DNA of 24,592 bases. Origin: a virus. The notes below the pieces were generated by a model, which saw nothing but the letters and a program-made list of their open reading frames with translations, searched no databases and had not been told where the DNA came from. Positions within the stretch are counted from its first letter, which is position 1; each line of letters opens with the position of its first letter. The stretch is from positions 1-24,592 of the IMG/VR virus record IMGVR_UViG_3300037189_023486; one strand, 5' to 3'. Below, piece after piece: positions 1,353 to 24,592 of the stretch. A program made the translations under genes and the position numbers.

Positions 1353-2752
1353 TAATAGTTACCAAATGGATTTGATTCTGAAAAATCGACAATAAGATCT
1401 GCTTCTTGTTCAATCTCATCATTTTGTTCATATTTATCTGCAAATTCACTTTGAGATGTAATTTGTAAAGTATACATTGCAGAAGATGCAGATCCTACTA
1501 TATTTTCTCCAGGAACAAATGATCCATCTATAACTCCAACTTGAAGAATATTTGTATCCTTATCCCACATTTTAACCCTAGATTTTGTACCAGAAATTGA
1601 TCCAGTTACAATTTCATTAAATGCATATGTACCAATTCCTGTTAATAATGGTGGAGGTGCTATTGTTATGGATGGGGCACTTGTGTATCCTATGCCAGCA
1701 TCTTGAATGAGAACTTGAGTTATACTTCCTGCAGTGCCAATAATAACTCTACCAACTGCAGTTACTGCTATTCCTGCGGTTGGAGAACTAAATGTGATTG
1801 AAGGTGCCACTGCATATCCATCTCCATAAGTTTGTATTCCAATCGCACCAATACCATAATAATCTTTAACAATTTCACATGTAGCAGCTGCTCCAGCACC
1901 ACTTCCATTGGGATAAATTATAATTGAAGGGGGTGTTGTATATCCAGAACCTGGATTTACTAATAAAATTTCTTTAATCGAACAAACTCCCCCCCTACAA
2001 GTTGTAAAAGCAATTGCCGATGCAGTTGTTCCACCAGCAGGAGCTCCTGTAAAAGATACTGTTGGTATTCCAACATAATCATATCCATCATTATTTAAAA
2101 ATATCTTTCTAATATATCCACTGGAAATTCCACAAGTTGCAGTTGCTTGTTGTCCAGTTGCAAATAATTGTAAAGATGTGATATATCCCTGATTTTGTAA
2201 AGTAGAATCAATTTCCTCAATAGTTGTGTTCATATCATTCCATCCACCAACTTCATCTTCATATTCGAATAATTCACATGTTAATTCATAAACATATGTT
2301 TTCCCTAATTGATAAAATGGTTTTTCATGCTCAACAAATTTTACTTCAAATAATCTTTTACCTAAAGGAAAATATATGATATCACCTTCTCTAGGTCTTG
2401 TTGATAATATTATTTCATTATCATCCATAGAATCTAAAAATGGAGATATAAAATCTTCAAATCTTTCTTTCGATATTATTAATGTTACCTCATCTTTCAA
2501 ATTCATTCCAAATTTTGTTAAAATATCTCCAGATCCAGTATAACCTTCATAGTTGCTTACATACGCTTCTATCGAAAAATTATCATCAAATTTTGAGGAA
2601 GTGACTTCTCTTATTATCGTCTCTCTTCTTACAAATTTTCTTGGAATGTAAGAAACTTCTACACCATAAATTTTCAATTGCTCATTAATCAACTCTTGAA
2701 TAAGTCTCTGTTCTCCTGGAGATCCTTGTAAGAAAAAGGGATTAAGTGCCAT
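1352..2752 (-). CDS. gp14: gp14, neck protein, with a Gly-Tyr repeat insertion
   Basis: gp14 joins gp13 in the neck that seals the filled head and accepts the tail. The first ~185 residues carry the family signature: 'MALNPFFLQGSPGEQRLIQELI' at the start, 'YGVEVSYIPRKFV', and an 'EGDIIYFPLGKRLFEVKFVEHEKPFYQLG' region. The C-terminus ends in the familiar '...DFSESNPFGNY'. At 466 residues it is far longer than T4 gp14 (256). The excess is an insert at about residues 210-370 holding four copies of a G-x-G-Y...P-[ST]-[IV]-x-[IFV] repeat. The same repeat type occurs in other virion proteins of this window. Inside the insert a C-x4-C pair (C252, C257) is encoded across a run of seven G. The start overlaps the gp13 stop by one base (TAATG), and TGGA lies just upstream. 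Confidence 0.92.
   Translation of the reverse strand: MALNPFFLQGSPGEQRLIQELINEQLKIYGVEVSYIPRKFVRRETIIREVTSSKFDDNFSIEAYVSNYEGYTGSGDILTKFGMNLKDEVTLIISKERFEDFISPFLDSMDDNEIILSTRPREGDIIYFPLGKRLFEVKFVEHEKPFYQLGKTYVYELTCELFEYEDEVGGWNDMNTTIEEIDSTLQNQGYITSLQLFATGQQATATCGISSGYIRKIFLNNDGYDYVGIPTVSFTGAPAGGTTASAIAFTTCRGGVCSIKEILLVNPGSGYTTPPSIIIYPNGSGAGAAATCEIVKDYYGIGAIGIQTYGDGYAVAPSITFSSPTAGIAVTAVGRVIIGTAGSITQVLIQDAGIGYTSAPSITIAPPPLLTGIGTYAFNEIVTGSISGTKSRVKMWDKDTNILQVGVIDGSFVPGENIVGSASSAMYTLQITSQSEFADKYEQNDEIEQEADLIVDFSESNPFGNY
1650..2110 (-). repeat. Four Gly-Tyr repeats inserted in gp14
   Basis: Four copies of a beta-type unit with a core like DGYDY..IPTVSF, GSGYTTPPSIII, GDGYAVAPSITF and GIGYTSAPSITI. 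They are spaced roughly 42-48 codons apart, measured from the repeated 'tatcc' (coding GGATA) of the Tyr-containing core at about 2083, 1938, 1814 and 1686. Between cores lie Ala/Thr/Gly-rich stretches. The neck-fold halves of gp14 flank the block, so it looks like an accessory domain. Boundaries are approximate. Confidence 0.8.
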
Positions 2753-3591
2753 TATCCAATAAAATCGTAGGGTGGAAGCTCGTATTCCAGAGCCATTTTT
2801 GATCTAATTTCCTCTATCTCTCTTTCCCCATCTTCATAAATTTCTCTTCCATTTAATTCGATACCACCAGGAAGTTTTACTCCTCTAAATTTGATTAAAT
2901 TTTGTCCCCATTGCCTTTTTATTAATGCTGTTAGATATCTTTTTATGAAACTATCATTCCAAACTTTAGTAAAATCATCAGGATCTAAAATTCTATAACA
3001 ATCAATTACAAAGAAATTATCTACTTTTTGCGCTCCCCATTCAATATCCAAATACATCCTATTTTGTCTTTTATTAAATCTAATTTGCTTATCTGTTGTG
3101 AGTAAAAAGTCGATGTCTTCCAAGTAACTTTTTACCATAGCATATTGCAATAATTCCACCGAATTGAAATAATATAAGTCATTTAAAAATAATTGATATT
3201 TAATACTAAACATTCCACCACTAATTGAACTTGTATCAAATTTAAATACTTTTTCTATTCCTATAACCGAATCGGGAACTTGGATATAATTTGCAGTTTC
3301 GTAAAAATTAAAACTTGTAGTTATTCCACTGATTGTAGAACTTCCTGTAGTAGTCTTAATTCCTACTCCAGTAGTATTTTTTGCAGTTCCCCTATCAATA
3401 TCTGCTTGGGTAATTTTGTATTTCAGATACATTCTTTCAACACCATCAAAATGCCTCTCATGGAAGTACTGGAGGGCATCATCAACTAAATCATCTATTT
3501 GATCATCATCGACATTAATTTCCAATACAGGAGCACCCAGACGCCTTAAACAGTAATCTATAAGTGATTGACGACTATTTGGTTTTGACAT
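2752..3591 (-). CDS. gp13: gp13, neck protein
   Basis: 279 residues (T4 gp13 has 309). gp13 binds the portal after packaging and with gp14 forms the neck. Recognisable segments are the N-terminal 'SLIDYCLRRLGAPVLEINVDDDQIDDLVDDALQYFHERHFDGVERMYLKYKIT', central 'IEKVFKF', 'YFNSVELLQYAMVKSYLEDID', 'VIDCYRILDPDDFTKVWND', and C-terminal 'FIKRYLTALIKRQWGQNLIKF'. All are conserved across T4-like marine phages. It ends '...ELPPYDFIG'. A GGAGA ribosome binding site lies 10 bases before the ATG, the clearest in the window, which fits gp13 being the first gene of the coupled 13-14-15 block. A 42-base gap separates it from the upstream 114-residue gene. Confidence 0.93.
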   Translation of the reverse strand: MSKPNSRQSLIDYCLRRLGAPVLEINVDDDQIDDLVDDALQYFHERHFDGVERMYLKYKITQADIDRGTAKNTTGVGIKTTTGSSTISGITTSFNFYETANYIQVPDSVIGIEKVFKFDTSSISGGMFSIKYQLFLNDLYYFNSVELLQYAMVKSYLEDIDFLLTTDKQIRFNKRQNRMYLDIEWGAQKVDNFFVIDCYRILDPDDFTKVWNDSFIKRYLTALIKRQWGQNLIKFRGVKLPGGIELNGREIYEDGEREIEEIRSKMALEYELPPYDFIG

Positions 3592-3633
3592 TAGTAAAAT
3601 ATCTCCATATATTGAATTAAATCAATCTATAAT
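3592..3633 (-). promoter_or_regulatory. 42-base gap before gp13: GGAGA site and AT-rich inverted repeat
   Basis: This short gap holds a Shine-Dalgarno-like GGAGA at 3602-3606, 10 bases from the gp13 start. It also holds an imperfect AT-rich palindrome, ATTGAATTAAATCAAT (3611-3626, one mismatched pair). A TATAGATT (6 of 8 match to the late octamer TATAAATA) lies near the upstream end of the gap. I regard the ribosome binding site as sound, the promoter as weak, and the palindrome as unexplained. No U-tract follows it, so it is not a convincing terminator. Confidence 0.5.
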
Positions 3634-3978
3634 TTATCTAGTTACTCCTTCTCTCACCAAAACCATACCTTCTATAACTCTAGCAGTTGTAGAAGTAATC
3701 CCATTATAAGCAATTATATCGTATATGTACCTTCCTGGTTTTAATGAGGAAGTTACCGATGTTGTCAATCCAATTTTTATTACTCCTTCACTAGGACTAA
3801 CTTTAGTAGTAGTAAAATTGACCGCAGATGAACTAGCTGCATGTTTTCTCATCTGAGAAGTAATAGTATAGTTAGTAAGATCTAATGCTGAATTTGTATC
3901 AGAACTTTCTAAAGTAAAAGTTTGATTAAAATCAGTTCCAGCATTAACAACTATGTTGCTTACATATACTGCGGCCAT
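3634..3978 (-). CDS. Small virion-associated beta-sandwich protein (predicted)
   Basis: 114 residues, beginning MAAVYVSNIVVNAGTDFNQ and ending 'RVIEGMVLVREGVTR'. Proteins with this start and length occur next to the neck genes of marine T4-like phages, where they are usually labelled structural or hypothetical. The pattern is 'aG.dF.qtftL...dg..lDLTnYti.sqmRkh', then 'gvikIgLt...tssLkpGrYiYDi', and a final strand. This resembles the Ig-like fold of phage upper-baseplate N-terminal domains (BppU_N type), but I infer that from the strand pattern and not from a search. There are no membrane segments or cysteines. It follows a perfect late promoter octamer by 23 bases, so it may be the first gene of a late transcript running into gp13-16. 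Its exact role is unknown. Confidence 0.8.
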   Translation of the reverse strand: MAAVYVSNIVVNAGTDFNQTFTLESSDTNSALDLTNYTITSQMRKHAASSSAVNFTTTKVSPSEGVIKIGLTTSVTSSLKPGRYIYDIIAYNGITSTTARVIEGMVLVREGVTR

Positions 3979-4001
3979 CTACAAAAAATCGGACCTCTAT
4001 T

Positions 4002-4009
4002 TATTTATA
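4002..4009 (-). promoter_or_regulatory. T4-type late promoter octamer TATAAATA
   Basis: A perfect TATAAATA on the coding strand lies in the short gap before the 114-residue gene, immediately next to the stop codon of the 58-residue gene. T4 late promoters consist essentially of this octamer, read by gp55 with the gp33/gp45 coactivators, and marine T4-like phages keep a similar motif. Transcription would begin a few bases downstream, leaving a leader of roughly 15-20 bases before the ATG at 3978. An AGAGG lies at 3994-3998 but is far from the start (15 bases). Confidence 0.7.
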
Positions 4010-4186
4010 TTAAGGTTGAACACCCAATTGAATTAATGCCTCTTGTTGAGCAAAATATAATTTTGTATATGATTTTGCAATGTTTTTTAGTAATTCTAAA
4101 TCATCACAAGTATCAATTTCTCGTGAAATTTTTTCATATTCAAATAATTTTGCCATATTTGACAAATTAATTTTAGATGGATCCAT
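4010..4186 (-). CDS. Small conserved-type phage protein, 58 residues, unknown function
   Basis: A 58-codon frame begins MDPSKINLSNMAKLFEYEK and ends '...EALIQLGVQP' at a TAA in 4010-4012. The protein is nearly all helical: 'NMAKLFEYEKISREIDTCDDLELLKNIAKSYTKLYFAQQEAL' has regular heptad-like spacing of Leu/Ile/Phe. I recall short proteins with an 'AKLFEYEKISR.ID' core at this place in cyanophage structural clusters, but no function is known to me. It overlaps the 68-residue gene upstream by 14 bases in another frame. TTGGAAAAAA before the ATG may act as a ribosome binding site. Coding is supported by the coherent amphipathic sequence, its filling of an otherwise empty ~190-base gap, and its stop abutting the late promoter. 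Confidence 0.78.
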   Translation of the reverse strand: MDPSKINLSNMAKLFEYEKISREIDTCDDLELLKNIAKSYTKLYFAQQEALIQLGVQP

Positions 4187-4379: not shown

Positions 4380-7300
4380 CGTACTGCTATTGTTCTAAAT
4401 TCTTTAATTTTTGGAGCATATGCTTGGTTTGTACCCGACATTACAATTTTAATTGTATAACCAGTGAATAGATCTAAATTATCTGCAGTAAACTGATATT
4501 CGGAAAAACCATATGTCAAATTGGGATTTACATATGCATCTGGTTCTCCAGTATTTTTTCCAGAATCTATAACACTATATTTTCCATTATTATCTAATGT
4601 CAAATTATTATATCCTGGGAATAATTCAAATGCTTGAGTAACTTCACTAGAATCTGGTCTAATCAAACTATAAAGAACTCTAAAATCTGAAGATGCTGGA
4701 CGATATGCAGATAAAATTACTTTTAATGATGTTGCTGGTTGCTGCAAGGTAATTGTATTTGAAACATATATACTGGAATGTGGATCATAAAGTCCAGAAT
4801 TTACTCTACTATCCGAAATATAATCAATAATTGGTCTATCTAAGCGATTGCTATTAAATTCGGTGTGCGCCGAATCGCAGAAAATTGCAGGTGATAGATT
4901 TTTATCATTAGTATTTAATGTTATGGCGGTAGTGAAAGATTTATTTCTTGGAACTCCACTCAAATATTCAGTTTCATTTATTTTTGAACATACTATTCTC
5001 GTACTATTGAAAGTATTTAATTTATTTAATTCGACAGGTTCAAATCCATTATCTAAGAATGAAACCTCATCTCCACTAACACTAGTTCCACTTGTGGATC
5101 TTATTGCAGCACTTACTGATGTCAATGATCCTGGTGTTAAAATATTATAATTGGGAATTAATGCATTATATTGGATATTTTGAGTTGCATGAATATTGGG
5201 TCCTCCCAATGTATTTCTATCTGTAAATGAAAGTTGTGGAGCATTTGCCAAACTAGCATCTGCAGATCTATCAGTGCCTTTTGTAGAACTTCTATCAATT
5301 TCCAAATAATACTCATCTAAAGTTATATCTAAATCGCTAATATCATGATTGGTATTAATTCTTCTAAGAGAAACCCCATTTAGTTCATACTTATACATCA
5401 GAGTTCCAATTGGATGAACTATTGAAATAGTAGAATCTTGAGATCTACTGATTGTATTTAATAAACCATTCCCAACAGACTCATATTTAATAATTTCATT
5501 TTCAATTTTTACATATCCTGGATTCGTTGCACTTACTGGGATTCCTTCAAAAGTTCCAAAGTTTGCAGTATCTGCAATTGCAACACTTATTGTAGTGCTT
5601 TCTGCGATTAAAGGTGCAGAAATTGCTACAGGAGGATAATTTGGTTCAACATCACTAATTGTCAGTTTATTAACTTTGGAATACATTCCATGATCAAAAT
5701 GAGAAACTCTTATAAAATTGCCAGAATTTTGATTTGTATCTGATGAATATGAAGTTATTAAAGTGCTTCCTAAAGATACTCTTGTTCCACCATTGTAGTA
5801 TACAAGTTGTGCCGATCCATCACCAGTAAAGGATTCTGCTTGAACACCAGAAAGATATAATGTATCAATACAATTACCATTTCCAGTAATAGTAATTCTT
5901 GCATCTGTTCCAGTATTTCCTGCAGTTGAGGTTACAATACCAACTACATCGCCAACAGCATATCCATGACCTCTAGATACAATGGTTGGAGTTCCTGTAA
6001 TTACACCGTTTGTTGCACTGATATTCAATACTAATCCAGATCCTTTTCCAGTAATATTGAAAGTGTCCACACTAGAATCTGTCACATAATTTTTTCCTCC
6101 TGTTGTCAATCCAACTGTTCCAACAGAGCAACCAACACCAACAACATATCCGTAGTTGTATGTTTTTGTACTCTCACCAATCTTTCTTCCTAAAGATAAG
6201 ATACTAGTCAATGTTGAATTACTTACAGTAGTAATTCCTATTGTGGCAGTTTTGGGGAAAGTTGTTAGTGCATTATTATCCAAATTCTTAATATATCCAT
6301 TGCTTGAATCTAAAGTTGGATTATAGAAGTAAGATGTACCAGACTGTGATGTAAACTCTGCCTTATAAAGTTTAAATTTCAAATCTTGATACTGATTTGC
6401 TGTCCATATAGATCCATTTTGAGATTTGAACAGACTTCCCATGGAAAACTGTGTAGTATATCTAACACTTGATGCATCTGGTAATGATGCAGTATTTACA
6501 GTTTTTTCTCCCATTTGTGCTGTCCACAATTCATAATCATCACTAGTATCTGAAATAATTACAATTGCATATTCTCTTCCTGGACTTAAATAAATTGGAG
6601 ATTCGAATACAACATGAGTTGCTATCTCTGCAGTATCTGAAGTTTTTACATCATCAGGTCTCAATGTAACTGGTTTTCCTATAATTTCTCTAGTTGGAGT
6701 ACCCAACTGCATATTTCTAATTTCAATTCTTACTGGATTATTTCCTGTTGGTTTTGCCGCAAAGAATAAATCTACCGCTGTTAAAAATGCACCATTTACA
6801 TCATCATTGGTATTGGTTGGAGATGGTGCTTCAATATTTCCACCAACAACAAATGATTGAGCAAGAGGATCAACATATCTAGCTGTTGTAACAGTATCTG
6901 TACTTGTTTGTGTTATTAATGTATTTGTAGTAGTGTTAGTTGTTGTAATTACATTTTCAAATTGTTCAACTGTTCCTTCTGAACTATAACTAGTTTCTGC
7001 TGTAGAAACTGAAGTGCTTCCTGGTAATGGATCTTTATTTGTTGAACTTGAGGTTATTTTATATGTCTTATTACCAGTTTGAATTCTTACTGTTGGGGTA
7101 GGAGATGCATTTGGATCTCTCAAGAAAAATGTTCCGATTATATCGCCATAATTATCAGAAATCAATCTCAAATCTTTTACATATGCTACTGCGCCACTAG
7201 TTTGACCAACCAATACCATACCTTTAACCAAATATCCAGAATATCTTCCTTGAGCTTCTTCAGATAATGAAAAAGTATCAATATTCAAAACTTTGGAAGA

Positions 7301-11638: not shown

Positions 11639-11643
11639 TTTTT

Positions 11644-13194
11644 TTAAAATTCCAGGATAATTTTAATGTCTTCTTTTTGTCTAGAATTTCTAGAAACTAG
11701 AGGTCTATTATCAATGTAAATAATATCTCCCGATCCTTTATTTATCTCAGGATTTGCCAACCCATTAGTAAATGTAACTCCCAAATTTATAACTTTATTT
11801 GCAACCGTAACTTTATTATCACTGAAGGAAGTATCAATTGATCCAGAAAATGGAATAATTTGATTTGATGTTGACTCAAAATCTAATACCTTAGAATCTT
11901 CAGATACTGTATTGTAATCTGTTTGATCCTTATTACCAGTAGCACCAAAATATAATGATCTATCTCTATAATATCTTAAAACCTTGGTCTCACTATCATA
12001 TGAGGCAACATATCCTTTTGCAACTCCATCAGTTACTATTTGACTAATTTCTTGACCAATTGTTGGTGTTCCACTAAATGATGATGTGAGTTTTATTGAA
12101 TATAATGATGAATATTGATTTTCTGTAAAAATAGAGTCTGATCCAAAACTGGTTGGATTTTTTAAAATTCCAATTTGGGCAAACTTAGTATCTGTCGGAA
12201 AATCTTTTGTCGAATCATCAAATCTAGCATAAATTAAAATCTTATCAGTTCCCAATTCTTTGTAGATATCATATCCATGACCTTTAGATGGAGGAATAAT
12301 GGGTATCAATTTTGCTGGGTTGGGAATGGATCCACCAGGTTGAAGAGGACCCAAATCTACTATTCCATAGGTGTATCCACTTCCTCCAGATGTAACCGTA
12401 GCAGATAAAATACTACCATTTCCAGAATCCACTTCAATTAATACTTTTCCTCCAGATCCATCACCAAGTATATTAACTTCTCCGGAATTATAATTTGATC
12501 CAGCATTTTCGATATATATTTTTTTAATTTGGTTCTCATTTATAGTAGAATCTCCATTTTCTCTAACTGAAACTATCTGAGAATCTGTGGAAGTTTCCCA
12601 TTCACTTGGAACAACAATATATTCGGTAGAATCAAATTTTATAACATCACTTGGAGAAACTGAAAAAAGATATTTCCATATGTAACCATCTCCACTTTCT
12701 CCTGCTGCAGATGGTTCCAAATCAGTAAATTTTGGTTCATCCTGAGAAGAATTTCCTTTTGGATTTTCTCCAGAAGATCCATTATCAATACAAATATAAA
12801 CCCTATAATCACTATTCATTACATAGTAATTTGCATCATAAAGTCTATATGAATTTGATGTTGGACTTGGTTTTTCTGTACTATAATCATGTCGATACAT
12901 TTCATACTTAAAATTGGCAGTCCAATCCAATCTTCTTATAATTCTTCTAATATTAGAATCTGTAATTTTTCTTGCAAAAATTGATGTGTCATGATAGTGC
13001 CCAGTATAATCAAAATTATCAACAGGTGATGGTGGGTTTTCATCCCAATTATCAGTCCTACCAAATCCAATGGATGCTGGATCTTGGTTGCACAATCCCG
13101 CAAAAACATAATAAGAATTTGAAGTATTTGTCACAGAATCAACAAAATTGTTGGCATTCAGTATTCTAAATTGATCTGTTACAACTGCAGCCAT
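11644..13194 (-). CDS. gp8: gp8, baseplate wedge protein
   Basis: 516 residues, starting MAAVVTDQFRILNANNF, a start I recognise from gp8 of cyanophages and relatives. gp8 is a wedge component of the baseplate (T4 gp8 has 334 residues and is dimeric). Conserved-looking parts are 'SYYVFAGL', 'DPASIGFGRTDNWDENPPSPVDN', 'NFKYEMYRHDYS', 'YRVYICIDNG', 'GYIWKYLFSVSPSDVIKFDS', 'KGHGYDIYKELG' and the C-terminal 'IYIDNRPLVSRNSRQKEDIKIILEF'. The extra length includes a segment at about residues 225-285 with two Gly-Tyr repeats ('AGSNYNSGEVNI', 'GGSGYTYGIVDL'), the same module seen in gp14 and the giants. A perfect late promoter octamer lies 17 bases upstream. There is no strong ribosome binding site, only AGAAAAAA. 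Confidence 0.88.
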   Translation of the reverse strand: MAAVVTDQFRILNANNFVDSVTNTSNSYYVFAGLCNQDPASIGFGRTDNWDENPPSPVDNFDYTGHYHDTSIFARKITDSNIRRIIRRLDWTANFKYEMYRHDYSTEKPSPTSNSYRLYDANYYVMNSDYRVYICIDNGSSGENPKGNSSQDEPKFTDLEPSAAGESGDGYIWKYLFSVSPSDVIKFDSTEYIVVPSEWETSTDSQIVSVRENGDSTINENQIKKIYIENAGSNYNSGEVNILGDGSGGKVLIEVDSGNGSILSATVTSGGSGYTYGIVDLGPLQPGGSIPNPAKLIPIIPPSKGHGYDIYKELGTDKILIYARFDDSTKDFPTDTKFAQIGILKNPTSFGSDSIFTENQYSSLYSIKLTSSFSGTPTIGQEISQIVTDGVAKGYVASYDSETKVLRYYRDRSLYFGATGNKDQTDYNTVSEDSKVLDFESTSNQIIPFSGSIDTSFSDNKVTVANKVINLGVTFTNGLANPEINKGSGDIIYIDNRPLVSRNSRQKEDIKIILEF

Positions 13195-13211
13195 ATTACT
13201 AGTTTTTTCTA

Positions 13212-13219
13212 TATTTATA
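13212..13219 (-). promoter_or_regulatory. T4-type late promoter octamer TATAAATA before gp8
   Basis: A perfect TATAAATA on the coding strand lies in the 30-base gap between the giant gene's stop and the gp8 start, with 17 bases to the ATG. The position fits a late transcript that begins just before gp8 and runs on through the DUF4815 gene. The octamer also lies within an 8-codon TAATG-initiated micro-frame (13200-13226). I found only this one and the copy at 4002-4009 as perfect octamers on the coding strand, and both are intergenic. Confidence 0.72.
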
Positions 13220-13224
13220 CTTCA

Positions 13225-16200
13225 TTATATGATAACTTTTGGTAATGATCCATTTAATCTTAAACCAGTACCTCTTCTTTGAATATCTGAAAAAGTAGAG
13301 AGACCAACATTAACTGTATTTCCAGATACTGTTAATGAAATTGGAGAATCTGAGCGAGTAAATCCAGATAATCTGCCCCAAGAAAATTTTCCTATTGGAC
13401 TTGATATAGTTCCAGTTGTTGCTATCCCAACTGTAGATGTTCCAGATCTTATATTTGTAACTATTTCTGCGTTTGGTCCTGTAGATGTTATACTGTGTAC
13501 ATAATAAATGTTATCCAAGAATGTTGTACCAATTCCAACAATAGTGGAATTTGAAGTATTAATGGAAGTGACACCTTTACCTACAGATGTATCAAAAATA
13601 TAAATTGGATAACCAGTTGATAATCCACTGAAACTTGAAGTTGCAGATCTTAAGAAAAATTTAAGTGCTAAAGGATTTCCACCAGTACCTGTTGTGGTTC
13701 CAATTCCAGTAACAATTCCAGAAAATCCACTAACTAAAGAAACATCTTTAATTAATTCCATTTTTAAATTATCATTAGTAGAATTTGGATCCACTATTAA
13801 TGAATTAAATTTAATATTTGGTGAAACTAGATTTTCATAATTGAAAAATTGTGCATTATCTAAGAATATTTGTGTATCTGTGGTGGAGAAATCCTTAATT
13901 ATTTTTGCTGTTGGATATACTTGAGATTCTATAGAGTCTCTAGATTTATAAACTATTTCTCCATTAATTTCAGTATCTACCTTTTGCTTGGTCCAGGCAA
14001 GAGGTTTATAATTATTTACATCAATACCTTGATCAAAATATAAGTTCGTTTCAAATTTATCAGAATATTGTAAATCAAATACTTTTCTTCTATTTTGAGA
14101 TATTAAATTAGTATTGTTGCCGTTTAATACCTGAACAATATCACCTTTTTTGATGGTAGTGTTCACAGGGACGAGGGAACTATCTTCTTCTTTTGTTCCT
14201 CTGTAGAAAAATACTGCAACATTATCACTTTCTTTGGGAGCAGTTGTAAATGTGAAGGAAGTTCCGCCATCAAAATTATATGCAATTCCTGGTTCCTGAA
14301 TTACTCCGTTTATGACAATTAATAACAAATTATTCATATTAATTTCTGGAGAATTTTCAGATTTTTCAAAACTAAGTAGCGAGGAATTATAATATAATGG
14401 GAAAGTAGTTCTTTCTCCATCTTGGTAACTCTTTATAGAGTCAATATAATCGAATTCTCCAAATTGCCAGGATGCAAAAGAATCTGAGAATGTGTCAATA
14501 ACTGTTAATTTGAATTGGGAAATTGGAGATGACAATCTACCGCTAGTAACTAATCCAACTGGTGTAAATACATCTCCTTTATTAAATCCATAACCCTGTC
14601 TTGTTATGTTGAAAGTTTTAACCTCAAAATAAGTAGATCCAATTCCAGTAGTTGAACTTGCACCAACTTCAATATCTAATAATAATCCAGTTCCTGTAGT
14701 AGTTGTAGTTCCAATACCCAATCTAGAGATTCCAATAATTTCAAGATTTTGATATGATGGTGGAGAAACAAATATTTGTGGATTTGTGTATCCAGTACCA
14801 CCATTTGCCACATTAAAGGATAATGTTCCACCAGCACCGACTGTCGCAGTAATTGATGCTGGAGTTCCTGTATGTCCACTTTGATATACACTCACTCCGA
14901 TTGAAATAATTCCGTTATACCCAGAACCTAATCTATCCGTAGACCCCTTACCTACAGAAATTATGCTTCCAGAGTTTACAACTGCCGTGACAGAAGCGCC
15001 TGCAAGTGGAGCATATCCCAATCCTCCAGATGATCCTAAAGAAACAATTATTCCACCCCTTGGTAATTGATTTTGATTTACATCATAAACTGATGTAATA
15101 ATATTTCCTTCATTATCAGTTATTCCTGAAAATACTACACTGGATACTCCCACATTTGTATTTTCATATATTCTAAAATTATTTGCGGGATTATTATCTG
15201 TTGTTGGAGTTTGGAAAATTCCATTTATTAATAAAATTCCATTTCCTCCAGTTAATCCTAATCCTGCAGTATTAATTCCCTGAGAAGTTAATGTAAATGT
15301 TTTTCCTATTCCAGTAAATTTTAAAGAAATATCATCATATATTTGATTTGTTGTATAATTATTTCTTAAATATACTCTTCCTGTAAAATCAGCAGTTTCA
15401 AACGATAAATTGCTACTATCTGTAATTATTTGAGGATTTCCTCTTGGAGACTCCGCAAAAAATATACTATTTCCAACAATATTATAAGATCCTTTATAAA
15501 TTGTTGCAATTCCTGTAGTATCTTGGTGGGATGTTGCTGATGATCCAACTGCTCCTCTGTTAACTTGAACCAGATTAATATTTCCAGTATTTGTAATTGG
15601 TCCCACACTAGTAGTTCCAAGTCCAACATTCGTAATAGACATATATTCATTATCTATTTTTAAAATATCATTTGGTTTTATTGAAGAAATTCCACTTAAT
15701 GCAAATATTGAAGATTGTGAATTAATTTGTCCACCGTTATTAGTTAAATTATATTTTAATGGTGTAAATGTAATTGGATATTGAATAACATTATCAATTG
15801 TAATAATAGTTTTTGAATTTTTTTCATACATTTCAAGTTGATGAGCATTTCCAACACCATAAGAAGTAAATGTTACACCTATTCCTTGTTGTGCATAATC
15901 TTTTCTGGTAGATAGTTTGAATGTATCTTTGGAAGTTTTGATTACATAGACATCTGATGGCAAACGATTTGTTGTAATCCCCAAAGAATTTAATGTTGTA
16001 CCTATGCCTACAGCACTTTGTGCAACTCCAATAAATGTAGATTTAGGAGTATAGATTAATTTCTCACCATTACTAAAGAAATGATTTTTTATTGAAAACT
16101 CACCAGTTGCAGGATTTAAAATAGAACTATTTGTAGGATCAAAAGTATATGCAAATATTGGATATCCATCAGATGTTAAATTAAATTCTTTTCTGTTTAT

Positions 16201-19200
16201 TCTATTTCCATTGATAGCATTATAAAAACTAACTTCTACAGATTCTGTTATATTTCCATAGTATAAGTTTGGAGGAATATTAACAGAATCAACATATGTG
16301 TAAACACATTCATTGAAAGATGATAAATTTATTCCCGATGTTATGTTTGAATCTGGATAAAATACTAGAGAGAAATAATTTCCATTAAATGAACCACCAA
16401 AAGTTCCTATTCCAGTAGTGCTCCCTACAGAAAGAAATGCTGATTGTTCAACATAAATGTTAGATGTATCTTGAACTAAAAATACTTGATGAAGACTACT
16501 AGTAGATCCAACACCAACTTTAATTACTGATTTTAATGCATTGAAATCATTTTTGTTCAGTGATATTATTGATGATGCTGCAGAAACATTAGATTGATAT
16601 TTTGATTCATATGTTGCAGTTCTTTCATATCCATTTATTTGACCAGATAATTTAAATCTATATGTTCCAACACCAACTGATGTTGTACCCAAACCAACAA
16701 TTTTTGATCTAATCTTAATAGAATTTGAAGAATTGTTGTTATAACTTAATGATAATATTCCAGAAGATATGTTTGCACCGAATGAACCTATAGAGTTGCC
16801 AGAATAACTATCAGTAGTAGATATTGTATCAAAATAATATTCGGAAATATAAGTATTAGTTCCATCATGAGTTAAATATAATTCAACAAAATTCATTTGA
16901 TTTGTTGAATTATCAACTATTTGAACATTGGCGCATAGTGATTGTATTTTTCCAGATTCTACAGAAAAAATTGAAGTTGATAGTCCAGAGTTTACTCCCG
17001 TAGTAGAACTTGTTAGGTTTACAAATCCTACAGAAGTAGTTCCAATACCTGCCGAATATGAACTAAATTTATTTCTAATAACTTTTACATCATAATCATA
17101 GTCATAAGGATTTGCTGGATTAAACTGTAAATATTTTCCATCAACTTCTTCTGAGATTGTAAATTCTCCGTATGCTAGATATGAATTAAATATAGATCCC
17201 TTTTCTAAAATATAACTTTCGGAACTGTTATTTAAAATTACTATCTCTGTTAATTGAATCTGAGCATTTGATGGATCTGAAATTCTGACCAATATTCTAT
17301 TGTATGTTTCTGCAGTATCAATTTTAAAAACATTTAAATATTCTGATGGTTCTCCATCTAAATTGGAAAATTGTCTATGAATGTCATCAATTTTTAAAAC
17401 ATTATTACTTATACACTCAATATAACTTGATAATTTTTTATTTTTTAAATTTAAAAATTTGGATGAATTATTTGTAGTATCAATGTCAACATCTTTAACA
17501 AGATCAAAATTATAGATCGTATCTACCCTATGTTCTTCAGATAAATCTATGAGATCTAATTTAGATGTACTATAATTTTTTGTTGTCAAACTTACTTTAG
17601 ATATGATTTCAGTATCTGCAAAGTTTTTTAATCCACTAGTATGCACTAAATTATTAACAGGTGTCTTTAATTCATTATAAGTAATGGGACTCTTTATTGT
17701 ATAAGAAAGATTTTGGTAATAGTCATTATCAGAAATTACTTGATTATCCTGATTCAGTTTTCCAATATCATTTGACCATCCAATATTTTTTTCTACCGAA
17801 TAATCAATTTTAAATTTTCCAAGATTAGATTCAATTTTGCTTATAGATGCAATACTTCCAGATGTTTTACCTTTAATAATATCTCCAACAGATAACTCAT
17901 AAGATCCAAATACCTTGACAAATGATTTATCCGAACTTGTGATAACCAAATCTATTTCAATTCCATTTGATATTAATTTTTCACCCACTATAAACAAAGA
18001 TGGATCTTGAATTACTTCAAAACTTGGATAGTCTTTATATGCAATAATAACTGGAAATGAATCTTGTATATTTTTTGCTATACCAGTATTTGATGTCAGT
18101 TGAGATACATCAATTTCAACTTTAACTGGATTTACAGAATTATCATAATCACTTATAGTAAGAAATTCATATCCATAATCTTCAGAATTAAATCCGGATC
18201 CATCTTCACTTATTTTTTTAATTCCTTCAATATAAACTTTATCTCCAATTTCAAATTTATTTTCATTAAATCCAAGTATTGGTGTTGTTATAAAACATGT
18301 AAAAATACCAGCAGAAGAAGATTCAACTTTTAAAACACTAATACCGTTATCATTATTAACTGCAAATAAACTTACAGTAGTGGAAGGTAATCCTTTTGGA
18401 GTTTGAATAATATCTACCGAAGTAATTGAATTTTGAGATAATTTTGCTTCTAGAATACCATTATCTATTTTTGTTCTTGTTTCGGAATCAACTACTATTA
18501 ATGAAGGTGCTTTGAGATAATTTTTACCACCATTTATTACATTAATTTTAGATATTAGGTTTGAATTTTCTAATGTTACTAATGGAGGTACGAAGGCAGT
18601 TGGTTGTATTGTTTTATCTTGGGAATAATCAAAACCCTCATTTACAATCCTTACTTCTTTTGGATTTCCTATTGTATTTGATTTTGCAACGATATAAGCA
18701 TCTTTTCCTGTTTCGGATGTTAGATTTGAAAAAGATGGAAGTTTTTTATATCCACTACCACCAGAAATAATATTAATATGGTTAATTGGTCCTTTTGATG
18801 TTAATGATGTTGTACTATACTCCAGAATATCACATTCGGATTGATTGTATGATAATTTTTCTGGATTTTTATTTAAAAATATATTGAAAGTAGTTGAACC
18901 AATCCCAGAAACAGAATATGTATTTGTATATTCGCTGTTTGTAAATAATATTTCTGAGTAGTTTGTTACTTCATTGTCTGCAGTACTTATATACCCAGAT
19001 TTTTCCAAATTATAATATAGTTTAGTTGGCAATTCATTAGAATAATGTAATGTTAATGACGCATATGTTGTTAAACCAACCGTGCCAATACCAGTTACTG
19101 TAAAACCACTAGTTGAAGCTGTAGAAACAAATTCATTTTTAAATTCTTGGTCATAATATACTTTTAATTTGTATCCATATAAAGAGGAATCTGATAAATT

Positions 19201-22200
19201 GAAAATTAGATCATTATTCTTAATAACTTTTATTTGAGGATTTACAAGACTAATTGATTGATATCTTCCGCCCGTAGATGCAAAACTTACTGTATTTGGG
19301 GGATTAATTGTCGAATCATAATAAGTTTGTGAAAATTTTATGTTATTATCATCTACTTTATATACAAAATATGATCCAGTAGATAATCCTGAAGCAATTG
19401 TATCTGTAGAAGAATAAAATACTTTATCTCCAGTATTTAAATTATGAGAATTAATCGTAATAATATTTGTTGTTGTATTAATTCCAGTTGAATTAAATCC
19501 TAAGGGATTAATAAGTATATTCTCAAAAGAATTTTTCTTAACATATATTGAAGTTGAAGTTCCGATACCAACAGATAAATTTGGATTGACATTTAAGTCA
19601 ATTTTATCACCAAATGCCAATTCATGAGATGTTGAAACTGATACTTGTGTTTTGATTCTTTTAACTTTTCCAATTATTTGAGAATAATCACTAATCAGCG
19701 AATAAGTATCATAATCACTTCCATTGTTTAAGAAAAATAACTCTGGAGAATCTATTTGTGTTTTTATTCCTATAACATTTATATTTTTATTCTGAATATA
19801 TAAAACTTGAGAATTTCCTGAACTTGGTATGTTGTAAGATGGAGTTCCAGTTTTGGAAGTTGATACTGAAATGTTAGCCGCACCATCTGGTTTGACAAAA
19901 ATTACTTTTTGATTAGTTTTAAATGGGTGATTTTCAATATAAATTCCTTGAGTTGGAACAACTCTTGTAATTGTTGAGTCACCAAGTTGAACTTCTATAG
20001 AAGTTGTTATTCCAGTTTGTGTTCCTATACCTATAGACTCTATAGGATTAAAATAAACTTTATTATTAAGAGAAGACTCAAAATAATTTACATTATTGGA
20101 AATTGTAAAAGAATCTGGAATGAAATTTATTTGAGATGTTGCAGTATGTGATATTCCAGTTGATCCTCTTATTACCTTTAAAATACTTAAATCTTTAAAT
20201 ATTTCAATGACTTGACATATTTCAGTTGCACCAATACCAATACTACTACCAATAGATACTGATTTTGGAATTTGTGAGACATACAACTCTGTCGATACAC
20301 CAGCAGATTGGGATGGAACAGATTTTATAAGATTTGAATAATAAGAAGTAACTCCTATTGTATAAGAACCATTCAATTTGCTCAAATTTGTAGAAAATCC
20401 AGATATAACGACATTATCAATGTTTGACAAATTGTGATTTGGTAAAATTGTAATATTTACTTGATTTTCATTTTTCCAAGTAAAAATAGCATTTTCATAA
20501 TTTTCTACTGATGTAGAAAGATCTAATATATCTTTACCTTTTATTGAAGAAACTCTTAACAATAATCCTCCACCATTTGTTCCAGTATCGTCAGAAGTAA
20601 ATGAATCATTGACTTTATAATTTGATCCAGAATTTAAAACATCAACACTATTAATATATCCATCAGTTACAGACTCAATGATGGATGTTTGTTTTGAAAA
20701 TTCATTAGACTCAGACAAGAAATCATTGTCTGCATATGGGTCAGAAACTTTATATGGAAATGTATTTCTAACTAAATTTGAAGAGTTAAAGTCGAATGAT
20801 TGATCTATACTTATATTTTCTTCTATAAAATTCGATCTATATGTATCACCAATAAAGTATGGGAATTTGGATTCAAATGTCCCAACTTCAATGGGTGCAA
20901 AATATGCATAGATACCATTTGGGAATTCTGGAGTTTTTCCAAATCTTCCATTATTTTCATCTAAATCTCCAGAATTAGTATAATTATAATCCTCAACAAA
21001 AAATCCATATCCGAATTGTGTAGGTCTATCATTAATATTGTTTGAATTTAATTCATAACCAGGTTGTAAAATTTTTAATTGAGAATTCTTATCTTCTGGA
21101 TCTGAATATCCATATGATCCATAAATCGGGTTTCCGTCATATGCCCACCCAATTATAGGAGAATGTTTTTGTCCAACATCTTTAAATGACTTCTGTAAAT
21201 TATTAAAATAACCACAAACAGAATATTGCAATCCATTTTCAGTTTGATCTAATAATTCATCACCAAACTTAATATTGTTATTTACAGTTAGGTCCCTTAT
21301 TTTTAGATCAAAAATAGCATTTTTTCCTGTTGGAACTACTTTAATAGTAGTTGTTCTGCTAGAGTATCCAAGTCCAGGATTTGTAATGATTACTGATGTT
21401 ATTTTTCCATCGCTTATGACTGGTCTAAGTTCTCCCCCAGATCCAGATTCTGAAGAATCCACAATAATCAAGTCTGGAGAAGAATAATATTCATAACCAC
21501 CATATTGAACATTGACCGCTTTAATCATTCCATTGACAACAACTGGTCTCAATTGTGCTTCTCTACCATTTTTTACTGATAAAATTGGTTTTTTATGTAG
21601 ATTTAATATTGTTGAACCGTAACCAGTACCATTTTCATACAGATATACATCTACAATACTACCTTTAACACTTGCAGTTAGATTAATAGATCTGAATTGT
21701 TGCGATGTAGTACCTAAACCAACTTGAGTATATGATATTGAAGCTGAAATTGTTGGATAACTAAAATATTGATATCCCGATCCGCATGAAGTGAATTTTA
21801 CATAATTTTTTCTATTATAATTTGTTATATCTGTACCACCAATTCCCGCATCACATAATCTAAATGAATTATCATTAAATTTTAAAACATAGAATTGATT
21901 AGATGTTGAAAGTCCTACTATATTCGATGTTTGATAATTATATGTTATAATGTCACCACTGTTAAATCCATGATTTTCAAAATTAATAGTATAATTTAAT
22001 GTTGATATTCCAGTAGGTTTTACGATTAATTTTCTATTTTGATAACCACTTCCACCATTAATAACTTTAATTTCTGAAATTACTTTTTTATTTGAAATCG
22101 TAGAAAATTTATGAAGTCCTGAGTTGTATACTTCAGTAAATCCTATAGTATTAATTCCTGCTGAGTAACTTGAAAATGATGGATATAATTTTATTGATTT

Positions 22201-24592
22201 ATTATTTTCAATTTTTACATAATATGATGAATTATTAACCAAAGTTAAATTTTGATCAATATCACTTCCACCAAATGTGCCTATCCCAATAGGTATATTT
22301 CCATTTGAATTATAAATTACTTCTTGTCCATTATTTAAATTATGATCATCTAAAAATGTTATGGTATCATATACATAATCAACTCCTCCAGAATTTGATG
22401 ATAGTCTTCCATCAAAATAAATTTCCTTTACATTTTTCTTAAAAATTGGTTGAAGAACACATCCAGCACCATTACCACCACTTACTCCAATTGATACTAT
22501 CGAATTAATATCAAATTCTTGTGGATCTATAAAAACTTTTTCAACTTTACCACTAATAACTGGTTGAATTAATGCAGTTATACCTATTCCAGCAGATAAT
22601 TCTATAACTGGTGGATTTACGACATCATAATTTTTTCCACCATTTAAAACCCTTACAGATTTTACAGGGCCATAATAAATTTTATCATGTGATTTATAAC
22701 TTTTAATTTCTACACCATTAACTAACATTCCAATTGAACCAGGAACTGTTAGTTGATGTGTTCCATTTTGAGTATTTTGATTTAATGGAAATTTTTTCAG
22801 TAATTTTTGTGCTTGAATAATTGCAGATCTTTGAGAATATAATATGAATTGATGATCAGTAGAAAAATCTGAGTCCTCAAATTTTAAATTTCTATCACTA
22901 CCAATAAAAGATTTTGAAGCATACAACTTAATTCTATTTTTTAAATCCTGAACTTCTACATAATAGGATCCACCTTCAGTTAATCCAGCAATGACATTTG
23001 ATTCTGGTATGTAATAAATTCTATCTCCAGTAATGTATGGAACATCAGCAGAGCAATTTATAATCGAATATAAATTATCAGCATCTTTGTCGGACAAACC
23101 TACCGCAAAAGCACTATTAGTATTTTTTGTTATTTGATACGCATAGGGTATATTTAATCCTTTGTTATTCGATGGTAATGAATTTGATGCAACATACATG
23201 TATTCATCATTTTCATTGTATACATTTTGTATATCCGATAAAATAATATCATTTCCAAACTCAATGGGTACTTGAGAACTGCTAGATTTATTAATTTTTC
23301 TTCTCAAATCATATTCTTCACCAGATACTGGAGTAAAATTAAAATTGTTTAATGCAAGTGTTTTTGTATTATTTTCTATTTCATCTCTAACATACGGAAA
23401 ACTTTCAGATTCAGTGGGAAATTTTACATTATTAGTACCCCTTTCAACAATTTCTACTAAATCACCCTCTTTTAAACTTGACTTATTGATTGGACTTTTT
23501 ACTGTTATTGTAGATCCACTAATATTTTGTATTTGATATCTGGAACTTGTATTGTATATCCAAGAATTTGCAAATATTTCTTTATACGATTTATCTTGAA
23601 CTGGATCTTTAATTATTTCTCCAAGATTTTTTATTGATATTTCTTCTCCAGTTTTAGATTTAAAGGTATTAGATATCGGTACAAACTCTGATAATACACC
23701 TGTAATTCTAAGTTCTACTTTTTTTGTAGTATCTCCATTTTCATATCCATAATAAATTTCATCAGATCTTATTGAATCTGTAGAATTAATTTCTTCCTCT
23801 ACTCCAGAACAACCTAAAAATTGATTAATGCTTTTTCCAGTATATGTTATGGTATTATTTCCAGATATAATAGTTCCAGTTTTGCTAAATCCAATTGTAG
23901 TGTCAACACTAATTACTGATGCTCCTATAGAAACATTTTCTAAACATTTTGTATTAGGAGTAATTGTAAAAGTACCTTCAATCGCAGATCTATCATCATT
24001 TCCAATAAAGAGAGAAATTTTATAATATCTTTTATTTTGTCTAGTAAATACTTCTACTTCAGAAACTGGAGCATTAGTGTCGGGATCTGTAGACTTTGTA
24101 ATTGTTTGACCCACTAATTTTGAAGGATCTCCAGAAATTCTTTGTGCAGATACAACTCTTCTTCTAATGTATTCTGCAGATGATGGTTTGATTAGAAAAT
24201 CTTCTAAATTTATTACCTGAGGGGTTATTCCGTAAAGTACATTAAATAAAATTTTAAAAGACTCATCAGTACCTTTAGATTGATAAAAAGATCTGGAATT
24301 TTTTATAAAATTTCCTACATTTAAATCGGAAACAAAATCTACATCCTCTAATCCTGGAGTTAATGCAAATTTTATTTTTTTATAAAATTCTTTTAAAAAT
24401 AGTGAACTTAAATTCTGTACCGAAGATTTTGAAGTATGTGCTGAGGATTTAGAAGTTGAAAATACTAATTCTTCTTGATTTGATACTGCATGATAAGAAG
24501 TAATACCACTAAATCCACGAATACATCCAGTAAAAGTATTAGTAGTAATTCCAGTATATGTGATTATTTCATTATCAATTTTTAACAACCCA
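13225..24592 (-). CDS. Giant modular baseplate/tail structural protein with YHYH-type domain (partial, start outside window)
   Basis: The frame runs open to the right edge. A TTG at 24588 is in frame, but the preceding codon (GGG) is open and the sequence begins inside a repeated module, so I treat the gene as truncated. Residues are numbered from that TTG. Near 60-135, 'FYKKIKFALTPGLEDVDF' and 'SKGTDESFKILFNVLYG' are typical of large marine T4-like baseplate proteins. A YHYH-type domain ('GWAYDGNPIYGSYGY') spans ~1140-1240. 'FDLVKDVDID', 'NVLKIDDIHRQFSN' and 'EIVILNNSSESYILEKGSI' lie at ~2350-2475, and two similar beta domains at ~2540-2770. 'LLLIVINGVIQEPGIAYNF' and 'FFYRGTKEED' lie at ~3410-3470, and the C-terminus has 'GKFSWGRLSGFTRS' and 'QRRGTGLRLNGSL'. 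Many Gly-Tyr, HNL and GIGTT repeats occur throughout. It precedes gp8, where T4 has gene 7. A wedge role is inferred. Confidence 0.88.
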   Translation of the reverse strand, partial: GLLKIDNEIITYTGITTNTFTGCIRGFSGITSYHAVSNQEELVFSTSKSSAHTSKSSVQNLSSLFLKEFYKKIKFALTPGLEDVDFVSDLNVGNFIKNSRSFYQSKGTDESFKILFNVLYGITPQVINLEDFLIKPSSAEYIRRRVVSAQRISGDPSKLVGQTITKSTDPDTNAPVSEVEVFTRQNKRYYKISLFIGNDDRSAIEGTFTITPNTKCLENVSIGASVISVDTTIGFSKTGTIISGNNTITYTGKSINQFLGCSGVEEEINSTDSIRSDEIYYGYENGDTTKKVELRITGVLSEFVPISNTFKSKTGEEISIKNLGEIIKDPVQDKSYKEIFANSWIYNTSSRYQIQNISGSTITVKSPINKSSLKEGDLVEIVERGTNNVKFPTESESFPYVRDEIENNTKTLALNNFNFTPVSGEEYDLRRKINKSSSSQVPIEFGNDIILSDIQNVYNENDEYMYVASNSLPSNNKGLNIPYAYQITKNTNSAFAVGLSDKDADNLYSIINCSADVPYITGDRIYYIPESNVIAGLTEGGSYYVEVQDLKNRIKLYASKSFIGSDRNLKFEDSDFSTDHQFILYSQRSAIIQAQKLLKKFPLNQNTQNGTHQLTVPGSIGMLVNGVEIKSYKSHDKIYYGPVKSVRVLNGGKNYDVVNPPVIELSAGIGITALIQPVISGKVEKVFIDPQEFDINSIVSIGVSGGNGAGCVLQPIFKKNVKEIYFDGRLSSNSGGVDYVYDTITFLDDHNLNNGQEVIYNSNGNIPIGIGTFGGSDIDQNLTLVNNSSYYVKIENNKSIKLYPSFSSYSAGINTIGFTEVYNSGLHKFSTISNKKVISEIKVINGGSGYQNRKLIVKPTGISTLNYTINFENHGFNSGDIITYNYQTSNIVGLSTSNQFYVLKFNDNSFRLCDAGIGGTDITNYNRKNYVKFTSCGSGYQYFSYPTISASISYTQVGLGTTSQQFRSINLTASVKGSIVDVYLYENGTGYGSTILNLHKKPILSVKNGREAQLRPVVVNGMIKAVNVQYGGYEYYSSPDLIIVDSSESGSGGELRPVISDGKITSVIITNPGLGYSSRTTTIKVVPTGKNAIFDLKIRDLTVNNNIKFGDELLDQTENGLQYSVCGYFNNLQKSFKDVGQKHSPIIGWAYDGNPIYGSYGYSDPEDKNSQLKILQPGYELNSNNINDRPTQFGYGFFVEDYNYTNSGDLDENNGRFGKTPEFPNGIYAYFAPIEVGTFESKFPYFIGDTYRSNFIEENISIDQSFDFNSSNLVRNTFPYKVSDPYADNDFLSESNEFSKQTSIIESVTDGYINSVDVLNSGSNYKVNDSFTSDDTGTNGGGLLLRVSSIKGKDILDLSTSVENYENAIFTWKNENQVNITILPNHNLSNIDNVVISGFSTNLSKLNGSYTIGVTSYYSNLIKSVPSQSAGVSTELYVSQIPKSVSIGSSIGIGATEICQVIEIFKDLSILKVIRGSTGISHTATSQINFIPDSFTISNNVNYFESSLNNKVYFNPIESIGIGTQTGITTSIEVQLGDSTITRVVPTQGIYIENHPFKTNQKVIFVKPDGAANISVSTSKTGTPSYNIPSSGNSQVLYIQNKNINVIGIKTQIDSPELFFLNNGSDYDTYSLISDYSQIIGKVKRIKTQVSVSTSHELAFGDKIDLNVNPNLSVGIGTSTSIYVKKNSFENILINPLGFNSTGINTTTNIITINSHNLNTGDKVFYSSTDTIASGLSTGSYFVYKVDDNNIKFSQTYYDSTINPPNTVSFASTGGRYQSISLVNPQIKVIKNNDLIFNLSDSSLYGYKLKVYYDQEFKNEFVSTASTSGFTVTGIGTVGLTTYASLTLHYSNELPTKLYYNLEKSGYISTADNEVTNYSEILFTNSEYTNTYSVSGIGSTTFNIFLNKNPEKLSYNQSECDILEYSTTSLTSKGPINHINIISGGSGYKKLPSFSNLTSETGKDAYIVAKSNTIGNPKEVRIVNEGFDYSQDKTIQPTAFVPPLVTLENSNLISKINVINGGKNYLKAPSLIVVDSETRTKIDNGILEAKLSQNSITSVDIIQTPKGLPSTTVSLFAVNNDNGISVLKVESSSAGIFTCFITTPILGFNENKFEIGDKVYIEGIKKISEDGSGFNSEDYGYEFLTISDYDNSVNPVKVEIDVSQLTSNTGIAKNIQDSFPVIIAYKDYPSFEVIQDPSLFIVGEKLISNGIEIDLVITSSDKSFVKVFGSYELSVGDIIKGKTSGSIASISKIESNLGKFKIDYSVEKNIGWSNDIGKLNQDNQVISDNDYYQNLSYTIKSPITYNELKTPVNNLVHTSGLKNFADTEIISKVSLTTKNYSTSKLDLIDLSEEHRVDTIYNFDLVKDVDIDTTNNSSKFLNLKNKKLSSYIECISNNVLKIDDIHRQFSNLDGEPSEYLNVFKIDTAETYNRILVRISDPSNAQIQLTEIVILNNSSESYILEKGSIFNSYLAYGEFTISEEVDGKYLQFNPANPYDYDYDVKVIRNKFSSYSAGIGTTSVGFVNLTSSTTGVNSGLSTSIFSVESGKIQSLCANVQIVDNSTNQMNFVELYLTHDGTNTYISEYYFDTISTTDSYSGNSIGSFGANISSGILSLSYNNNSSNSIKIRSKIVGLGTTSVGVGTYRFKLSGQINGYERTATYESKYQSNVSAASSIISLNKNDFNALKSVIKVGVGSTSSLHQVFLVQDTSNIYVEQSAFLSVGSTTGIGTFGGSFNGNYFSLVFYPDSNITSGINLSSFNECVYTYVDSVNIPPNLYYGNITESVEVSFYNAINGNRINRKEFNLTSDGYPIFAYTFDPTNSSILNPATGEFSIKNHFFSNGEKLIYTPKSTFIGVAQSAVGIGTTLNSLGITTNRLPSDVYVIKTSKDTFKLSTRKDYAQQGIGVTFTSYGVGNAHQLEMYEKNSKTIITIDNVIQYPITFTPLKYNLTNNGGQINSQSSIFALSGISSIKPNDILKIDNEYMSITNVGLGTTSVGPITNTGNINLVQVNRGAVGSSATSHQDTTGIATIYKGSYNIVGNSIFFAESPRGNPQIITDSSNLSFETADFTGRVYLRNNYTTNQIYDDISLKFTGIGKTFTLTSQGINTAGLGLTGGNGILLINGIFQTPTTDNNPANNFRIYENTNVGVSSVVFSGITDNEGNIITSVYDVNQNQLPRGGIIVSLGSSGGLGYAPLAGASVTAVVNSGSIISVGKGSTDRLGSGYNGIISIGVSVYQSGHTGTPASITATVGAGGTLSFNVANGGTGYTNPQIFVSPPSYQNLEIIGISRLGIGTTTTTGTGLLLDIEVGASSTTGIGSTYFEVKTFNITRQGYGFNKGDVFTPVGLVTSGRLSSPISQFKLTVIDTFSDSFASWQFGEFDYIDSIKSYQDGERTTFPLYYNSSLLSFEKSENSPEINMNNLLLIVINGVIQEPGIAYNFDGGTSFTFTTAPKESDNVAVFFYRGTKEEDSSLVPVNTTIKKGDIVQVLNGNNTNLISQNRRKVFDLQYSDKFETNLYFDQGIDVNNYKPLAWTKQKVDTEINGEIVYKSRDSIESQVYPTAKIIKDFSTTDTQIFLDNAQFFNYENLVSPNIKFNSLIVDPNSTNDNLKMELIKDVSLVSGFSGIVTGIGTTTGTGGNPLALKFFLRSATSSFSGLSTGYPIYIFDTSVGKGVTSINTSNSTIVGIGTTFLDNIYYVHSITSTGPNAEIVTNIRSGTSTVGIATTGTISSPIGKFSWGRLSGFTRSDSPISLTVSGNTVNVGLSTFSDIQRRGTGLRLNGSLPKVII
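14560..22665 (-). repeat. Dispersed Gly-Tyr repeats in the giant protein (about 12 copies)
   Basis: Copies of an I/V-x-x-G-G-x-x-Y...P-x-[ILV] unit are scattered over the gene. From N- to C-terminus: NGGKNYDVVNPPVIEL (~22600-22660), NGGSGYQNRKLIV (~22020-22070), CGSGYQYFSYPTIS (~21750-21800), NGTGYGSTILNL (~21600-21650), GGYEYYSSPDLII (~21470-21520), NPGLGYSSRTTTIKV (~21340-21395), NSGSNYKVNDSF (~20595-20645), GGSGYKKLPSF (~18730-18780), NEGFDYSQDKTI (~18610-18655), GGKNYLKAPSLIV (~18490-18545), NGGTGYTNPQIFV (~14760-14815), RQGYGFNKGDVF (~14560-14615). Some are clustered (21340-21800, 18490-18780), others single. Positions are approximate. Confidence 0.75.

Follow-up and report, generated by a model that had tools for sequence, protein, structure and literature searches.

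Results and discussion

The window, meaning the whole stretch of DNA that was analysed, is a complete IMG/VR contig of 24,592 bases from a marine T4-like (cyanophage-type) virus, with its main genes on the − strand. These encode a giant protein whose 5′ end is cut by the contig, gp8, a DUF4815 protein, a short tail-fibre-assembly-like ORF, gp13, gp14, gp15 and the terminase small subunit.

The gp14 neck protein (1352–2752, − strand) was identified as a T4-like head closure protein (Hc2) by its matches over the core to PF11649 (E 6e-30, aa 4–184 only) and phrog_460 (E 4e-127), and its closest annotated relatives are in Synechococcus phage S-SRM01 (61%) and Prochlorococcus phage P-SSM2 (55%). 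Alignment with T4 and other phages gave a layout of core (aa 4–184), a block of Gly-Tyr (GY) repeats (aa 190–375), a second, GETITG-type module and a conserved C-terminal tail. In S-SRM01 an HNH endonuclease gene (L168 30513–31040) separates gp14 from gp15; in the window the two adjoin. The gp8 protein (11644–13194, − strand) was assigned to the T4-like baseplate wedge proteins by PF09215 (E 1e-16) and phrog_438 (E 7e-161). The core folds of both proteins match T4 gp14 and gp8 by sequence (9mkb, 9lu4, 1n7z and 5iv5), and that of gp14 also by fold search; the T4 proteins lack the GY blocks.

The giant protein (13225–24591, − strand) carries a YHYH domain (PF14240, E 2e-26). Its first 3213 residues are covered by a match to phrog_2885, and P-SSM2 has a 15.6-kb gene annotated as gp7 at the equivalent position before gp8. 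Because of this match and synteny, the protein was identified as the gp7 baseplate wedge of T4-like cyanophages. Inspection by eye also found a second repeat in gp7, H-x-[LF]-x-x-G-[DE]-x-[IV]-x-Y followed by G(L/I)...YYV, in at least four or five copies (e.g. aa ~757, 865, 1714 and 2838), one of them inserted beside a GY unit. The gp7 of phage S-SKS1 (L170 11838–25785) is apparently split into several ORFs, at least two of which contain GY units.

The GY repeat in four virion proteins

A first-pass annotation of this DNA had claimed copies of one Gly-Tyr building block in gp14 (four), gp8 (two), the DUF4815 protein (two) and the giant protein (about twelve). A seed profile made from 21 hand-picked units described a repeat of ~43 aa with about 21 copies in the window, which it placed in gp14 (four units, aa 212–379), gp8 (two, aa 221–297), the DUF4815 protein (two, aa 1837–1918) and gp7 (13, aa 640–3360). 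As this search is circular, it was redone with profiles trained on the other proteins only (leave-one-protein-out), with 200 shuffles as the control. The gp14 protein scored 47.5 bits (E 5e-17; best shuffle 10.0 bits) and gp8 22.4 bits (E 5e-9; best shuffle 5.9), six gp7 units exceeded the best of the 200 shuffles, and reversed and shuffled controls lay far below the true scores. A profile built by iteration shifted towards the orthologues of gp14 and gp8, and the claims on gp7 and the DUF4815 protein make no use of it. The repeat was thus confirmed in gp14, gp8 and the giant protein, where the seed profile counts four, two and about 13 copies.

The four gp14 units lie in a block at 1628–2185 (− strand, as are all units below) and make two pairs; an AlphaFold2 model predicts the block to be all-beta. 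They are unit 1 (aa 212–250; 2003–2119; 8.5 bits leave-one-out), unit 2 (aa 257–294; 1871–1984; 26.3 bits), unit 3 (aa 299–337; 1742–1858; 10.2 bits) and unit 4 (aa 342–379; 1616–1729; 16.4 bits). The only pair in gp8 consists of unit 1 (aa 221–257; 12424–12534; 12.1 bits) and unit 2 (aa 260–297; 12304–12417; 12.9 bits).

In gp7, a pair at aa 640–716 (22441–22671; first unit 10.3 bits leave-one-out) is followed by a unit at aa 836–870 (21979–22083; 6.9 bits), four consecutive units at aa 929–965, 976–1019, 1020–1058 and 1061–1098 (21295–21804; the third and fourth 7.3 and 12.0 bits), a unit at aa 1310–1347 (20548–20661; 6.8 bits) and three at aa 1933–1971, 1974–1994 and 2011–2047 (18448–18792; the first 4.8 and the third 8.4 bits). 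The last two, at aa 3257–3288 and 3322–3360 (14509–14820), are conserved in S-SRM01 and S-SKS1 and did not rise above shuffles in the leave-one-out search.

The claim for the DUF4815 protein held in part. Both units were found by the seed profile, but outside their own family they are weak: unit 1 (aa 1837–1876; 6011–6130) was not above shuffles and unit 2 (aa 1878–1918; 5885–6007), a GYxxGD variant, was marginal (5.1 bits; best shuffle 4.7).

Predicted structure and position

Single-chain AlphaFold2 models of gp14 and gp8 were built with 71–72 sequences, and the core parts of both are of low confidence. The gp14 block (aa 190–375) was predicted all-beta with a pLDDT of about 89–96, each GY unit forming a long, a short and a long strand. 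The model of gp8 has matching strand order (aa 225–230, 238–244 and 247–255 in unit 1, then 262–272). Searches of BFVD with the two models returned overlapping sets of proteins, e.g. A0A0F6TH75, A0A6J7X1N2 and A0A6J5SB35, and the gp8 model matched a protein of Alteromonas phage ZP6 and one other phage protein in isolated stretches of 88 columns (rmsd 3.5–3.7), roughly the length of one pair. A common fold in gp14 and gp8 is thus suggested by the profiles, the predicted strand order and the shared structural matches, and these also uphold the earlier proposal that unrelated virion proteins carry the same building block.

In the alignment the gp14 block separates the conserved core from the conserved C-terminal tail, and the gp14 proteins of P-RSM6, S-RIM44, Melnitz-1, Ochrobactrum phage OC and T4 lack it. 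All the cyanophages compared have the gp8 insert; T4 does not. In T4 the post-core region of gp14 (aa 178–256) is disordered when the neck is isolated, and in the virion it binds gp15 (PMC12270204).

Other modules were seen beside the GY block of gp14. A third module, GE-x-I-x-G ... V-K-x-W (window 1450–1630, gp14 aa 373–434), flanks it, and stands alone in the gp14 proteins of P-RSM6 and S-RIM44, which have no GY repeats. A further module (GIQTNxITGI...GQxL) is inserted at the GE-x-I-x-G region in L379 and L375-like genes.

The pair as the unit

The first-pass annotation had described a single repeat unit. The repeat itself is real, but the natural unit is a pair of ~86 aa. In gp8 the segment of 82–91 aa is one pair in 71 of the 71 aligned proteins. 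In 225 distinct gp14 proteins (collected with four gp14 queries and related to one another, so that independent changes are far fewer than 225) the profile counted 0 units (41 proteins), 2 (62), 4 (103), 6 (2), 7–8 (7) and 10–11 (8), with single cases of 3 and 5. The odd counts were read by eye, post hoc: the protein with 3 units is on a contig with a truncated core and its first unit had been filtered out by position, the 5 includes a weak match in another module, and the proteins with 7 were read as having 8 with one missed or variant unit. By eye, the very long gp14 proteins of the L398 group contain 12 units, and 14 in the relatives that carry the insertion described below.

Similarity between units two apart (57.7) was slightly higher than between neighbours (52.8), which adds only slight support for pairs, and a step of +85 aa between the gp14 proteins of L376 and L422 consists of two canonical GY units. 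An earlier argument for pair steps from gp14 lengths alone had to be corrected, since some steps of ~80–90 aa are a different module. Read from the alignments and profile counts, the true unit is the pair, ~86 aa with six predicted strands, and gp14 counts are essentially always even.

Occurrence in other genomes

When 557 ORFs of P-SSM2 (249,999 of 252,401 bases) were searched with the window profile, only gp14, a tail fibre, the hub/tail lysozyme, gp7 and gp8 matched, and the next hit had E > 1. Matches in this related genome are thus confined to virion genes. With the gp14 repeat block alone as the query, tblastn matched gp7-type and other structural genes of cyanophages (E 9e-7 to 4e-4).

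The repeat also occurs in large proteins of planctomycetes, together with Big_3_5, FG-GAP and PATR domains. In Pinibacter soli an ORF with GY-like repeats lies close to genes for gp25 and Baseplate_J (L185; a second locus is L186), which suggests prophages or tail-like particles. Among the structure-search matches were also P22 gp10-like phage proteins and a Sylvanvirus protein. From its presence in planctomycetes, P. soli, P22 gp10-like proteins and Sylvanvirus it follows that the repeat is not special to cyanophages. In three planctomycete MAGs (L182, L183 and L184) the large GY-repeat proteins mix PATR, Big_3_5 and FG-GAP domains and are probably surface proteins. One contig filed as a Euryarchaeota MAG (L181) encodes gp6 and a gp7 that is rich in GY units and has a YHYH-like stretch, and from this gene content looks like a misbinned fragment of a cyanophage-type virus.

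No family in Pfam or NCBIfam covers the GY repeat block. PDB sequences gave chance matches only, and a PDB fold search with the gp14 model gave T4 gp14 (the core) as the sole significant match and nothing for the repeats. A plasmid search found no GY-repeat match, literature searches with motif strings returned unrelated sequences only, and a search of the cyanophage and T4 literature found no description of the repeat; no cryo-EM map of a Kyanoviridae neck or baseplate was found either. None of the libraries searched has an entry that matches the GY module, which is without a name.

Movement of the module

It had been proposed that the module moves between genes of the same genome by recombination, and a comparison of its copies at the DNA level bears on this. 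Of the 21 window units, 20 best matched the same protein in another phage and the remaining one best matched a probable split gp7 fragment of S-SKS1; copies within the genome were no closer to one another than to orthologues. Within the window no DNA repeats between genes were found at the GY units, and the sole DNA-level self-match (19414–19447 with 22312–22345) joins two copies of the second gp7 repeat. Since every copy is closest to an orthologue and no DNA repeats link the genes, no recent movement is seen in the window, and its copies are old and vertically inherited.

The wider population gave a different result. The gp14 proteins of L393, L395 and L402 carry 88 aa that are missing from L398, L404, L421 and L424, and between L393 and L398 this is a clean in-frame step of 264 nt, with DNA identity of 97.4% upstream and 95.9% downstream. 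The inserted piece scored 30.6 bits against the GY profile, a score reached by 0 of 300 shuffles; its second half is a clear GY unit and its first half is degenerate. The piece is most closely related, in named phages, to parts of short tail fibre, ‘head protein’, VrlC/DUF4815 and tail-fibre-connector genes, and in viral contigs to parts of gp7-like, tail, tail-fibre and DUF4815 genes. Two marks of a mobile domain, clean presence or absence between close relatives and kinship of the mobile piece with parts of different host genes, are therefore seen here. The step may reflect either gain or loss of the module. Movement between genes is thus not supported for the window, but the indel and the relatives of the inserted piece support it among virion genes of the wider population.

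A LamG-like stretch, recognised by eye and given no name by Pfam, seems to be inserted within the gp14 GY array of L393 and L398 (aa ~490–720). The 88-aa GY module is itself inserted within this stretch, giving nested insertions in a neck protein.

Interpretation

The GY pair is probably a promiscuous, surface-exposed accessory β-domain that spread by in-frame recombination and expanded in tandem. Each GY repeat would be half of a small all-beta domain made of two three-strand units of ~43 aa, ~86 aa in all. The insertions lie outside the conserved cores of the virion proteins, in loops or linkers that would be permissive; in gp14 the pairs sit in the linker before the C-terminal tail. In-frame recombination may have spread the domain and tandem expansion may have followed, and such insertions would be tolerated because the domain folds by itself and hangs outside the particle. 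Its likeliest job would be as a repeated outer-surface layer or spacer that alters the virion surface, perhaps making weak contacts with host-surface or dissolved polymers. The presence of the module, its pairing, its placement and one indel are results given above; surface display, which is read from homology and position, tolerance and benefit are what we infer. The present evidence fits a spacer or coat and a weak adhesive alike and does not distinguish them.

Two other accounts concern how the copies came to be alike. Chance or low complexity was rejected on the leave-one-protein-out profiles and the shuffles. The units are short, rich in Gly and Thr and of weak pairwise identity, and the DUF4815 copies are marginal, all of which would suit separate origins of a generic Gly-rich beta-hairpin in the different proteins; such convergence is nevertheless very unlikely given the gp14 and gp8 E values with controls so much lower, the confinement of P-SSM2 matches to virion genes and the equal three-strand order over ~43 aa. 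That recent gene conversion within the window genome keeps the copies alike is more improbable still. Hints of such a process come from another phage, S-RIM8, where short DNA matches of ~71–81% link gp7 with a neighbouring 1550-aa protein or gp8 and the units of the 1550-aa protein are closest to that genome's own gp7. Conversion should leave copies closer to each other than to orthologues, with repeats at the DNA level; in the window the units are closest to orthologues and no DNA repeats run between genes, which speaks against it there.

The other two accounts concern function. The pairs could each bind a carbohydrate or polymer, the repeats adding avidity for host lipopolysaccharide or extracellular polysaccharide. 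We regard a specific adhesin of this kind as a minority possibility: the repeat occurs in tail fibres, which also count among the inserted module's closest kin, and, in planctomycetes, in large proteins that have Big_3_5, FG-GAP and the autotransporter-associated PATR, and the conserved Tyr and Gly loop could form a binding edge, but no known carbohydrate-binding family in Pfam or NCBIfam was matched and the repeats are also in neck and baseplate wedge proteins, far from known receptor-binding sites. It is somewhat less likely that the blocks are internal architecture, making specific protein–protein contacts (e.g. gp14 to gp15 or the sheath, or gp8 to gp7) that are essential for assembly. The gp14 block does adjoin the C-terminal tail, whose T4 counterpart binds gp15, and the single pair of gp8 was constant throughout the 71 sampled proteins. 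A gp14 that has no units in T4, P-RSM6, S-RIM44 and others and from 2 to 12 or more in relatives is, however, a poor fit to a fixed contact. Because its copy number ranges from none to many, a fixed assembly role is unlikely for gp14, and such a role is more plausible for gp8.

The preferred reading, an accessory β-domain spread by recombination, has parallels among known systems. Phage Ig-like domains, in the account attributed to Fraser et al. in 2006, are reportedly small beta-domains found on many unrelated virion proteins, dispensable for the core fold and spread between genes and phages. The GY module works in the same way, in that it is found in unrelated virion proteins and is missing from the conserved core of relatives. 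Unlike those domains, it has no Ig or Big match in Pfam or NCBIfam at E 10, the gp14 fold search gives T4 gp14 only, and it consists of two three-strand units inserted internally, before a conserved C-terminal tail, and changing as tandem pairs.

In crAss-like phages, BACON tandem repeats of tail proteins are beta-domain arrays that evolve by duplication and by transfer of separate domains (PMC6949934). GY repeats likewise form tandem beta-domain arrays in phage structural genes, but BACON is a recognised domain and the GY family is a different, unnamed one that reaches the neck and the baseplate wedges; the GY block had no match to the BACON profile in Pfam up to E 10. Domain mosaicism, in which proteins of different functional class have domains in common, is enriched in baseplate and receptor-binding proteins and has been described for known ECOD domains (PMC10684548, which cites the 2006 work on Ig-like domains; its main text does not mention ‘head closure’). 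The GY module is a case of such mosaicism, but with no matching entry in the libraries tested.

Conclusions

Much of the enlargement seen in structural proteins of cyanophages (gp14 from 256 to more than 1100 aa, gp7 from 1032 to more than 6000 aa) was previously without explanation. A named and modelled module would be recognisable by annotators in many hypothetical virion proteins, and it ties together neck, baseplate, fibre and bacterial surface proteins. The gp14 proteins with 0, 2, 4 or 8 units, together with the pair that differs by the 264-nt indel, offer a natural experiment on accessory β-domains in marine phages. A bolder reading, possible though doubtful at present, is that the module represents an undescribed family of promiscuous virion-surface β-domains common to marine phages and surface proteins of bacteria, and that gaining or losing whole pairs tunes how many copies the neck carries (from 0 to about 14 in gp14). 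If true, this would give marine phages an adjustable adhesive or protective coat.
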